Below are positions 3,259 to 48,087 of a stretch of DNA of 64,000 nt, piece after piece (the first letter of the stretch is position 1; each line of letters starts with the position of its first letter). The notes below the pieces were generated by a model. The model was given only the letters and a program-made list of their open reading frames with translations, was not told the DNA's origin and did not search any database. This DNA is from an uncultured Pelagibacteraceae bacterium (GTDB taxonomy: Bacteria; Pseudomonadota; Alphaproteobacteria; Pelagibacterales; Pelagibacteraceae), in contig CABYYE010000002.1 of the NCBI GenBank assembly GCA_902523095.1, forward strand, positions 1 to 64,000, in the 5' to 3' direction. Made by a program: the position numbers and the translations under genes.

Positions 3259-3299
3259 TTATATTTGACATTTTCAGCTTTTTATTAGAGAGTCCGAAT

Positions 3300-3375
3300 G
3301 TAACGGGAGAGTCTGATTTAATTCAGCGCCGAAGGAGCAACTACCCAGGAAACTCTCAGGCAAAAGGACCGTTAC
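3300..3375 (+). promoter_or_regulatory. Glycine riboswitch, aptamer 1
   Basis: The core CGCCGAAGGAGCAA ... AAACTCTCAGGCAAAAGGACC matches the glycine aptamer. P1 can be drawn as GTAACGG (3300-3306) with CCGTTAC (3369-3375), seven pairs. It is the first half of a tandem pair lying directly before gcvT. A perfect TTGACA occurs at 3265-3270, but no well-spaced -10 box follows, so the promoter remains uncertain. Confidence 0.95.
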
Positions 3376-3380
3376 TTTAA

Positions 3381-3461
3381 TAACTCTGGAAAGAAGGCTA
3401 AAGCCTCACCGAAGGATTAAATCTCTCAGGTACCTAGACAGATCGGGTTTTAGAAGAGTTA
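3381..3461 (+). promoter_or_regulatory. Glycine riboswitch, aptamer 2, overlapping the gcvT ribosome binding site
   Basis: The core TCACCGAAGGATTAAATCTCTCAGGTACC ... GACAGATCGGG matches the second aptamer of tandem glycine riboswitches, joined to the first by a five-base linker. P1 can be drawn as TAACTCT (3381-3387) with AGAGTTA (3455-3461). The 3' strand of P1 overlaps the only purine-rich Shine-Dalgarno candidate (AGAAGAG, 3452-3458) and ends 2 nt before the gcvT ATG. This points to control of translation. No terminator hairpin is visible in the leader. The sign of regulation cannot be settled by eye. Confidence 0.93.
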
Positions 3462-45229: not shown

Positions 45230-46480
45230 TTAATGCGCTACGGCTGCAGCACCATGTTCGTCGATTAATCTGCCGTTAGAAAATCTTTCTAAATTAAATG
45301 CTTCATTAATTTTATGAGGTTCATCTTTTGCTACTGTATGTGCAAATACATTTGCGCTTCCAGGAGTTGCTTTAAAACCTCCAGTTCCCCAACCACAATT
45401 AAAATACAAACCTTTAACTTCACACTTGCTTATTATGGGGCTAGCGTCAGGACAAATATCAACTATTCCACCCCACTGACGTAACATTTTCATTTTACCA
45501 AAAATTGGATAGAGTTCTACAATAGCTCGTACAGTTTCTTCTATGACATCGTATCCTCCTCTTTGAGTAAATGAATTGTATCCATCTGTTCCAGCTCCAA
45601 TAACTAATTCACCTTTGTCTGATTGACTTACATAAGCATGAACTGCGTTGGACATGACAACTGTATTAATTACAGGTTTAATTGGTTCAGACACTAAAGC
45701 TTGTAAAGGTCTACTTTGTAACGGCAACCTAACGCCTGCAGTTTGTGCAAGTACGCTTGTATGCCCAGATGCTACCACTGCAACTTTATTTGCTCGGATA
45801 AAACCTTTTGAAGTATTAACACCCTCTACTTTATGGTTATCTGTTTTAATATCTTTAACTTCACAATTTTGAATAATATCAACTCCCATTTCATTTGATC
45901 TTAATGCGTAACCCCAAGCAACTGCATCGTGTCTAGCTACCCCACCTCTAGGCTGAAAAGCTGCACCTAAAACTGGATATCTTAAATTTTCTGTATTCAT
46001 AATCGGAACCAACTCTTTAATTTGTTTTGTATCTACCCATTGAGTATCCAACCCATTTAATCTATTTGCACTTATTCTTCTTTTCATCTCTTTAATATCA
46101 TGTTCATTGTGAGCTAAGTTCATTACACCTCTCTGACTGAACATCATGTTGAAGTTTAATTCTTCAGATAGATTTTCCCATAATTTCACAGAGTGGTCGT
46201 ACAAATTAGCACTTTCATTCCAGAGATAGTTTGATCTAATAATTGTTGTGTTCCGACCTGTATTACCTCCACCAAGCCAACCTTTTTCTATAACAGCTAT
46301 ATTTTTTATTCCGTGTTCTTTTGCAAGATAGTAAGCGGTTCCTAAACCATGCCCTCCGCCTCCAACAATTATAACATCATAGCCTTTTTTTGGCTCAGGG
46401 CTTTCCCACATTTTTTCCCAATTTTCATTGTTGGAAAAAGCATTTTTTATCAAGCTTAAAATTGAATATTTTTTTTTCAC
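45230..46480 (-). CDS. soxB: Sarcosine oxidase beta subunit
   Basis: The 416-residue protein starts at a GTG (46480). [57 protein letters not shown] is the conserved SoxB start, which supports this choice over the later ATG. The FAD motif is GGGGHG; H184 in [13 protein letters not shown] is the expected site of covalent [17 protein letters not shown] and [18 protein letters not shown] are typical. SoxB holds the sarcosine-oxidising site of the SoxBDAG complex. The gene is divergent from metY; the 314-bp interval between them is mostly metY leader, and I see no clear promoter for soxB. Confidence 0.96.
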
Positions 46481-46581
46481 AACTCAAATTAGCAAAAAAG
46501 CAGAAAATAACAAAAGAATTCCAGAGCAAAAAAGTATCACTTTTTAAAGAATTACCCTTGATTTTGGCAGTTTTATACAAC

Positions 46582-46609
46582 TTGACAATCATTAGTAATG
46601 GTTGATAAT
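46582..46609 (+). promoter_or_regulatory. Sigma70-type promoter for metY
   Basis: TTGACA (46582-46587, perfect) and GATAAT (46604-46609, 5/6 match) are separated by 16 bases. Transcription would start about 7 bases later, at the first base of the SAM-II aptamer (46618). This fit makes the promoter convincing. Confidence 0.8.
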
Positions 46610-46615
46610 GATTTT

Positions 46616-46669
46616 GTAGCGCTGATTTAAGTCAAATTGCTGAGCGCTTAATAAATTCCAGCTAAAGCG
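46616..46669 (+). promoter_or_regulatory. SAM-II riboswitch
   Basis: GCGCTGATTTAA ... AAATTGC ... GCGCTTAATAAATTCCAGCTAAAGCG matches the SAM-II consensus. The P1 stem is AGCGCT (46618-46623) with AGCGCT (46643-46648), and AGCTAAA (46660-46666) is the downstream pseudoknot strand. The 3' bases CTAAAGCG (46662-46669) are also complementary to CGCTTTAG inside the following terminator, giving an antiterminator pairing when SAM is absent. SAM-II RNAs lower expression of methionine-synthesis genes when SAM is abundant. Confidence 0.93.
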
Positions 46670-46681
46670 ATTAAGTCTAAT

Positions 46682-46711
46682 GACCACCGCTTTAGTCGGT
46701 GGTTTTTTTTT
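46682..46711 (+). terminator. Intrinsic terminator between the SAM-II and SAM-V aptamers
   Basis: ACCACCG (46683-46689) and CGGTGGT (46697-46703) form a 7-bp stem followed by a run of T. The loop and left arm contain CGCTTTAG (46688-46695), complementary to the end of the SAM-II aptamer. Formation should therefore depend on SAM binding upstream. It makes SAM-II a transcriptional switch. Confidence 0.93.
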
Positions 46712-46731
46712 GAAATATTTTCAAATTAAAA

Positions 46732-46788
46732 CTGGGCATTTGAACTATATTGTACGCCCGACATTTCGTCGAAGTACTAAAAAGGAGA
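46732..46788 (+). promoter_or_regulatory. SAM-V riboswitch overlapping the metY ribosome binding site
   Basis: GGGCATTTGAACTATATTGTACGCCC ... AAGTACTAAAAAGGAG resembles the SAM-V class of marine bacteria. P1 is GGGC (46734-46737) with GCCC (46756-46759). GTAC in the loop (46752-46755) can pair with GTAC (46774-46777) as pseudoknot, and AAGGAG (46782-46787) is the ribosome binding site 7 bases before the ATG. Ligand binding would block translation. It acts as a second, translational stage after the SAM-II terminator. Confidence 0.88.
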
Positions 46789-46794
46789 AAAAAA

Positions 46795-48087
46795 ATGGCT
46801 AATTTTAAACATCCGGAAACTATTGGTTTACACGGTGGAGAATTCAGAAGTGATCCAGCAACTACAGCCGTAGCAGTTCCTATTTACCAAACTTCTTCTT
46901 ATCAATTTAAAAATGCTGAAACAGCTGCAAATTTATTTGGTTTGAAAGAATTTGGAAACATTTACACAAGGATTATGAATCCTACTTGTGATGTTTTAGA
47001 AAAACGAGTGGCAGCTTTAGAAGGTGGAATGGCAGCAGTAGCGGTCGGTTCAGGTCAAGCAGCATCAGCTTATTGTGTTCTAAATGTTGCTAAAGCAGGT
47101 GATAACATTGTTGCCTCTACAGATCTTTACGGAGGCACAGTAAATCTATTTAAAAATCAGTTAAGATTGCAAGGTGTTGAAGTGAGGTTTGCAGATCCTG
47201 CAGATCCAAAAAACTTTGAAAAATTAACTGATGATAAAACTAGAGCATACTATGGAGAATCTTGTCCTAATCCATATCTTCGTGTTTTCCCAATCAAAGA
47301 AGTTGCAGATATTGGTAGAAAAAAAGGTATTCCTTTGATCATCGATAACACTGCTTCACCGGTAATATGCAAACCCTTAGCTCATGGAGCTGCTGTGGTA
47401 ATGCATTCTTTAACAAAATATATTGGTGGTCACGGTACATCGATCGGTGGAATCATTGTGGATGGTGGAAACTTCGACTGGACAAAAGATAGAAAAAGAC
47501 AACCATTAATGAATGAGCCTGATCAAAGTTATAATGGAGCTATATGGGCAGATGCGGTTCCTCAATTAACTGGAGCTAATATTCCTTTTGCTATCAGAGC
47601 AAGAGTGGTTTTACTCAGAGACTTGGGTGCTCCATTAAGTCCTTTCAATGCTTTCCAGATTATACAAGGTTTGGAAACAGTTGCGCTTAGAATGAAACAA
47701 CACTGTGTTAATGCAGAGAAAGTTGTTGCTTTCTTAGAAACACAAAAAAAAGTTACTAATATAATCTACCCTACTAATCATCAAGGTGAGATTAGAGAGA
47801 GAGCTAAGAGATACATGCAAGGTGGGTATGGCTCTTTAGTTGGAATGGACGTTGGTACAAGAGAAGCAGGTTCTAAATTTATAGATAATTTAAAAATGCT
47901 TTATCATGTTGCTAACATAGGTGATGCTAGAAGTTTAGCAATACATCCTGCTACTACAACCCATAGTCAGCTTAATGATGAAGAATTACTAGCTGCTGGC
48001 GTTACACCAGGTTATGTAAGACTTTCAATTGGTATTGAACATCCAGACGATATCATTGCTGATATTAAACAAGCATTAGCTGCTTAA
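46795..48087 (+). CDS. metY: O-acetylhomoserine aminocarboxypropyltransferase (sulfhydrylase)
   Basis: The ATG at 46795 is the start: AAGGAG lies 7 bases before it, and the track start at 46750 falls inside the SAM-V aptamer. The 430-residue PLP enzyme opens with FKHPETIGLHGGEFRSDPATTAVAVPIYQTSSYQF and has the Lys of the cofactor site in VMHSLTKYIGGHGTSIGGII. It joins O-acetylhomoserine and sulfide to give homocysteine (or methanethiol to give methionine). The double SAM leader shows that it serves methionine/SAM supply. Homocysteine made here is the acceptor for betaine methyl groups in the wider pathway. Confidence 0.96.
   Translation: MANFKHPETIGLHGGEFRSDPATTAVAVPIYQTSSYQFKNAETAANLFGLKEFGNIYTRIMNPTCDVLEKRVAALEGGMAAVAVGSGQAASAYCVLNVAKAGDNIVASTDLYGGTVNLFKNQLRLQGVEVRFADPADPKNFEKLTDDKTRAYYGESCPNPYLRVFPIKEVADIGRKKGIPLIIDNTASPVICKPLAHGAAVVMHSLTKYIGGHGTSIGGIIVDGGNFDWTKDRKRQPLMNEPDQSYNGAIWADAVPQLTGANIPFAIRARVVLLRDLGAPLSPFNAFQIIQGLETVALRMKQHCVNAEKVVAFLETQKKVTNIIYPTNHQGEIRERAKRYMQGGYGSLVGMDVGTREAGSKFIDNLKMLYHVANIGDARSLAIHPATTTHSQLNDEELLAAGVTPGYVRLSIGIEHPDDIIADIKQALAA

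Follow-up and report, generated by a model that had tools for sequence, protein, structure and literature searches.

A tandem SAM-II/SAM-V leader of metY in a SAR11 bacterium, with a covarying antiterminator as the candidate switch of its first stage

How two SAM aptamers placed one after the other could control a single gene, and by which RNA structure the first of them could act, is the question raised by the leader of metY in an uncultured Pelagibacteraceae bacterium of the SAR11 group. The combination of SAM-II and SAM-V in one leader has been known since 2009. The leader studied here is located on the + strand of contig CABYYE010000002.1, whose first 64,000 nucleotides were analysed and are called the window. 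Reading of positions 46300-47100 gave, within 46582-46797, a promoter, a SAM-II aptamer, an intrinsic terminator, a SAM-V aptamer and the metY start in this order, which is the arrangement of a tandem bi-mechanism riboswitch (SAM-II 5' of SAM-V with the terminator in between). The initial annotation had proposed this layout with coordinates that proved correct, and had pointed out that such leaders occur in SAR11; 149 tandem SAM-II/terminator/SAM-V leaders have been counted (PMC9481103). We consider this leader very probably a tandem OFF switch for metY, with a termination stage under SAM-II followed by a translation stage under SAM-V.

The controlled gene (46795-48087, + strand) encodes MetY, an O-acetylhomoserine (thiol)-lyase/aminocarboxypropyltransferase (TIGR01326, 553.1 bits versus a cut-off of 495.1). 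In HTCC1062, sulfur limitation induces metY (PMC5069961). The sigma-70-type promoter TTGACA-16-GATAAT, at 46582-46609 (+), was found where it had been placed, with 11 of the 12 consensus positions matched, and it is conserved: all 76 related leaders carry a promoter-like pair at most 50 nt 5' of SAM-II, with 3-8 nt between the end of the -10 element and the aptamer in 75 of them. Transcription is expected to start around 46616-46618, on the 5' edge of SAM-II. On the opposite strand, 5' of the leader, there is a sarcosine-oxidase-like gene set (soxB, soxD and soxA family matches), and elsewhere in the window a glycine riboswitch aptamer is present at 3294-3381 (+; RF00504, 75.7 bits).

Concerning the second stage, the SAM-V aptamer (46725-46790, +) was recognised by RF01826 with 73.5 bits, above the gathering score of 41 (E 2.4e-12). 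The Shine-Dalgarno AAGGAG (46782-46787) is inside this match, in the 3' pseudoknot strand, and the metY ATG is at 46795, which agrees with the earlier claim that a SAM-V aptamer after the terminator covers AAGGAG. Several sub-threshold Rfam matches over the leader (freshwater-2, sn2317, GcvB and others) were far below their gathering scores and were taken as chance.

The SAM-II aptamer occupies 46618-46671 (+). Its P1 is formed by 46618-46623/46643-46648, its P2a by G46639-C46662 and C46640-G46661, and its P2b by C46633-G46669, U46632-A46670 and G46631-U46671, all on the + strand. The Rfam search suggested with the initial annotation succeeded for SAM-V and failed for SAM-II: RF00521 (SAM_alpha) gave no match at the leader even at E up to 10, and nothing over the cut-off across the rest of the genome. 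The order-level relatives include genome G011, taken as Candidatus Pelagibacter ubique HTCC1062, with riboswitch coordinates in agreement with PMC2704228. On the validated bhmT SAM-II of HTCC1062 the same model reached only 15.5 bits (E 0.34), and therefore its miss at the leader is not a refutation; RF00521 was dropped as a criterion for SAR11 SAM-II aptamers because it is insensitive to them.

The aptamer is identified by other evidence. The core GAUUUAA / AUUGC / GCUAAA is kept, with few tolerated changes, in 76 leaders (alignments A1, A3 and A4). The P2b pair at A3 columns 16:55 appears as UA (31), AU (23), GC (17) or GU (8) and is unpaired in only 5 of 84 leaders, a covariation score that none of 500 shuffles reached, and P2b covariation is likewise seen in A1. 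The element has, in short, the P1 hairpin and the covarying P2 pseudoknot of a SAM-II aptamer. Moreover, a model (R2) was built from SAR11 SAM-II aptamers, the window sequence included, and one metX SAM-II aptamer sequence, which we take to be that of PDB 2QWY. R2 gives the window leader 67 bits, a score that is not independent since the window was in the training set; it also detects 10 of 10 tested loci that RF00521 recognises in other Alphaproteobacteria (E 1e-8 to 5e-5), all of them outside that set. The SAM-II aptamer proposed for the leader start is upheld by the conserved core, the P2b covariation and this cross-recognition. SAM binding and the direction of control in this leader are what we infer from the two families.

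The intrinsic terminator (46683-46711, +) has a stem of 8 bp (46683-46689/46697-46703) with the loop at 46690-46696 and a U tract at 46703-46711. As had been claimed, the end of the aptamer is complementary to it: nine contiguous pairs join GCUAAAGCG (46661-46669) with CGCUUUAGU (46688-46696). The pairing is real and longer than described, as CC 46658-46659 can also pair with GG 46698-46699 past one mismatch. The 5' strand of the antiterminator, CC A GCUAAAGCG, therefore extends over 46658-46669 (+) and overlaps the SAM-contacting P2 3' strand, and the 3' strand, CGCUUUAGU C GG, over 46688-46699 (+), comprising the terminator loop and the inner stem. The complementarity exceeded that of shuffled controls (p<0.05) in 76 of 76 relatives and in none of 38 terminator-less SAM-II relatives. 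Since the antiterminator covers the SAM-contacting GCUAAA of the P2 3' strand, SAM-II cannot bind SAM while the antiterminator is formed, and folding agrees with this mutual exclusion, also foreseen by the initial annotation.

Regarding covariation of the antiterminator, the comparison was widened from the window's genus to other SAR11 genera. Within the genus no covariation was found, the pair being nearly invariant. There, the terminator loop has a mean identity of 0.998 versus 0.685 for the adjacent spacer, and such invariance of a terminator loop is unusual. The dinucleotide that follows GCUAAA is GC without exception in the genus's terminator class; in terminator-less relatives it varies (AA, AU, CA, GA, AG). 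Across SAR11, on the other hand, two antiterminator pairs change on both sides (8 cells), which 0 of 500 shuffles achieved, so that the expected covariation exists between genera and is missing only within the genus. In A3, columns 52:77 change from GC to UA and columns 53:76 from CG to AU or UG. The replacement of GCG/CGC by UAG/CUA, compensated at both positions, is found in four leaders of genus g3 and in a fifth, L202; the second position is U-G in a family-f2 leader, and the first is C-G in a g6 metX leader (L218). A flanking position is A-U in seven leaders and U-A in nine, spread over several clades, and unpaired in most.

Furthermore, the innermost terminator pair, 76:84, changes from GC to UA in step with the antiterminator: G at column 76 goes with C53 and C84, and U there goes with A53 and A84/G84. 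One base following two alternative partners in this way is the trace expected from two competing helices. All nine pairs are retained in 85 of 118 leaders and eight in another 23, and when the 3' strand is shifted by 1-3 columns pairing falls from 98.8% to 18-54%. The independent covariation events appear to be small in number, perhaps four or five, because a change in GCUAAA would lose SAM contacts. A top helix GUC/GAC in the antiterminator loop is not claimed as essential, as it is mostly invariant and is absent in bhmT and several relatives.

Folding figures, which disregard pseudoknot energies, polymerase speed and ions, are consistent with a switch at this point. Folded as far as the U tract, the window leader has the antiterminator as its predicted minimum free energy (MFE) structure (-24.7 kcal/mol), versus -21.8 kcal/mol when the terminator is enforced; if the P2 3' strand is blocked, as in a SAM-held pseudoknot, the terminator is predicted to fold (-19.9 kcal/mol). 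With this strand sequestered the terminator was predicted in 84 of 84 leaders, and the free MFE contained the antiterminator in 74 of them and lacked it in 10. In the growing transcript, the antiterminator probability is 0 at 46690, 0.93 at 46694 and 1.0 at 46696, and so rises before the terminator 3' arm is completed at 46703. The full-length RNA is predicted to be about 97% or more antiterminator, that is, locked in this form, and on this prediction the outcome of stage one has to be settled while the RNA is still being transcribed.

The mechanism that we propose would begin with transcription at the SAM-II aptamer. If SAM were bound before about 46694 is made, GCUAAAGCG would be held in P2, the terminator (46683-46703) would fold and transcription would stop at the U tract. 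In the absence of SAM, GCUAAAGCG and the upstream CC would pair with CGCUUUAGU...GG in the terminator loop and inner stem, and RNA polymerase would read through. The read-through mRNA would carry SAM-V, whose SAM-bound form would cover the metY Shine-Dalgarno as a second check, at translation. SAM-dependent termination is what we infer for stage one, and folding is consistent with it. We also lean towards a narrower reading, in which stage one is a one-shot kinetic sensor: SAM-II would read SAM only during roughly 20-25 nt of polymerase travel, after which the antiterminator would permanently dismantle the binding site and SAM-V would stay as the lasting sensor.

The bhmT tandem RNA of HTCC1062 (177 nt; PMC11508383), which we located exactly via its oligo sequences, bears on this proposal. 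According to that paper, its SAM-II binds SAM when truncated and not at full length, an inactivity called puzzling there in 2024. The SAM contacts U46, A47 and A49 named there fall within the bhmT antiterminator strands, and folding of the 177-nt RNA gives an antiterminator probability near 1.0. The predicted advantage of the antiterminator, 5.7 kcal/mol, is larger than the roughly 4.7 kcal/mol that 2.5 mM SAM would provide at a Kd of 1.2 uM (PMC5069961), and this pairing would explain why binding is seen only after truncation. SAM-II binding returned when oligos were placed on the U tract or at sites farther downstream (PMC11508383); this is not obviously predicted by the antiterminator alone and counts against the proposed switch. 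Folding suggests that in bhmT the U tract and the SAM-V 3' strand pair with each other, which may account for some of the oligo effect.

Other explanations of the leader have to be weighed against a switching first stage. It is very unlikely that SAM-II is degenerate or inactive, with a constitutive terminator and metY regulated by SAM-V only. The missing RF00521 match would fit such a leader, as would the lack of a SAM-II response in full-length bhmT RNA (PMC11508383), but a dead aptamer would not maintain its core and a covarying P2b in 84 leaders. Besides, RF00521 also misses the bhmT SAM-II that binds SAM once truncated (PMC11508383), and inactivity at full length is what the antiterminator predicts from the energies given above (5.7 against about 4.7 kcal/mol).

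Even less credible is that the match between CUAAAGCG and CGCUUUAG is a side effect of the conservation of terminator and aptamer, with SAM-II acting otherwise, by direct stacking or an effect on RNA polymerase. The near-invariance within the genus, which leaves no covariation signal there, is what this would give; however, the 3' strand is part of a terminator loop for whose invariance no other reason is evident, compensatory changes between clades track the pairing, a shift of 1-3 columns sharply reduces it, and terminator-less SAM-II relatives lack the match. As for an equilibrium device, in which both aptamers bind SAM in the finished mRNA and give a steeper response, pseudo-cooperative behaviour has been discussed for such tandems (PMC9481103), but the predicted dominance of the antiterminator in full-length RNA and the silent SAM-II of full-length bhmT (PMC11508383) make it the least plausible of the three. 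The antiterminator switch is hence the explanation that we retain, with mutual exclusion and antiterminator dominance in the full-length RNA as predictions from folding.

Several related leaders of SAR11 show other arrangements. The HTCC1062 metY and mmuM leaders are listed as SAM-V only (PMC2704228, PMC5069961). In Pelagibacter (genus g3), the SAM-V of metY and mmuM leaders, these two included, is directly preceded by a compact SAM-II-like element, without terminator, with a P1 of 3-4 bp and the form UGCC GAUUUGAUCCUAUUGC GGGCA ... GCUAAAAAGGA; it is found at 260-305 of L090 (HTCC1062 metY), at 164-209 of L091 (HTCC1062 mmuM) and in L006-L035 near 1445-1490 or 1580-1625. R2 gave this element 19-35 bits in 22 of 22 loci tested and nothing significant on seven SAM-V loci without it, and its aptamer pairs show some two-sided changes. 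In these compact leaders, the SAM-V 5' strand has a complement in AUCGGUA, a segment located before SAM-V, with no covariation support. For a closing helix of AUCGGUA with the 5' part of SAM-II in compact metY leaders, no two-sided changes were seen, and it is left as a suggestion.

In other leaders, SAM-V is followed by an anti-Shine-Dalgarno segment and a second Shine-Dalgarno like the first, instead of the gene's own start (L071, L074, L076, L079, L082-L087 and L089, 3' of SAM-V; L036, HTCC1062 bhmT). The Shine-Dalgarno GGAGAAGAUGAAC can pair with the anti-Shine-Dalgarno GUUCAUUCUUCUCC, which can alternatively pair with the second Shine-Dalgarno GGAGAAAAAAUGAACGA before the gene, and a relay acting at a distance is possible from the sequences. 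With the SAM-V strand sequestered, the predicted fold switches from one hairpin to the other in L079 and bhmT; no such switch was obtained in L071 or L085, whose folds favour the second hairpin throughout.

SAM-II with the same antiterminator and terminator and without SAM-V is present in other SAR11 genera before a methylenetetrahydrofolate reductase-like gene (MetF, judged by eye; L193, L194, L195, L200, L201, L205, L207, L208, L211, L214 and L215). Diverged SAM-V-like elements, several without the consensus UUGAAC, precede metY-like genes with no SAM-II upstream (L178, L181, L185-L188 and L190-L192). Finally, Pelagibacter metX leaders (L056-L058, around 1500-1600) have SAM-II and a conserved downstream CAAUUCAA complementary to the aptamer-loop GAAUUG, which could form an alternative helix.

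The tandem architecture is already known and this metY leader joins it as a new member, to which the analysis adds an explicit and covarying stage-one switch and the kinetic prediction. The antiterminator pairing is not described in the tandem literature covered, which includes parts of PMC11508383; the initial annotation had offered it as the first-stage mechanism, an idea that covariation across SAR11 and folding support. An antiterminator that covaries and swallows the SAM-contacting strand is a specific answer to full-length inactivity, testable by mutation, and it suggests that finished RNA is the wrong state to probe in vitro. If the one-shot kinetic reading is true, the reported "linker-mediated inactivation" of SAM-II is the normal ON state and no puzzle. 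The leader also shows a possible coupling of transcription and translation in the control of methionine synthesis, in one of the most abundant bacterial groups of the ocean.

Compared with known systems, the bhmT tandem has the same order (SAM-II, terminator, SAM-V) and the same GCUAAAGCG and CGCUUUAG segments, at nt 44-52 and 66-73 of its 177-nt RNA, and differs in the controlled gene, which here is metY. The SAM-V aptamer shows no notable difference from RF01826, with a full-length match and the Shine-Dalgarno covered just 5' of the start codon. The SAR11 SAM-II is too distant in sequence from the Rfam SAM-II model to be detected. SAM-II riboswitches of RF00521 with a transcription terminator, such as that of S. 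meliloti metZ (PMC9373788), likewise have an H-type pseudoknot aptamer whose P2 3' strand can pair with terminator sequence. In rhizobial types the partners are P2b GGUCGG and the 5' arm of the terminator, in SAR11 the GCUAAA that contacts SAM and the loop of the terminator. In other Alphaproteobacteria the P2/terminator strand-shuffle test was individually mostly not significant, probably due to high G+C, and the paired P2 and terminator segments change together between lineages.
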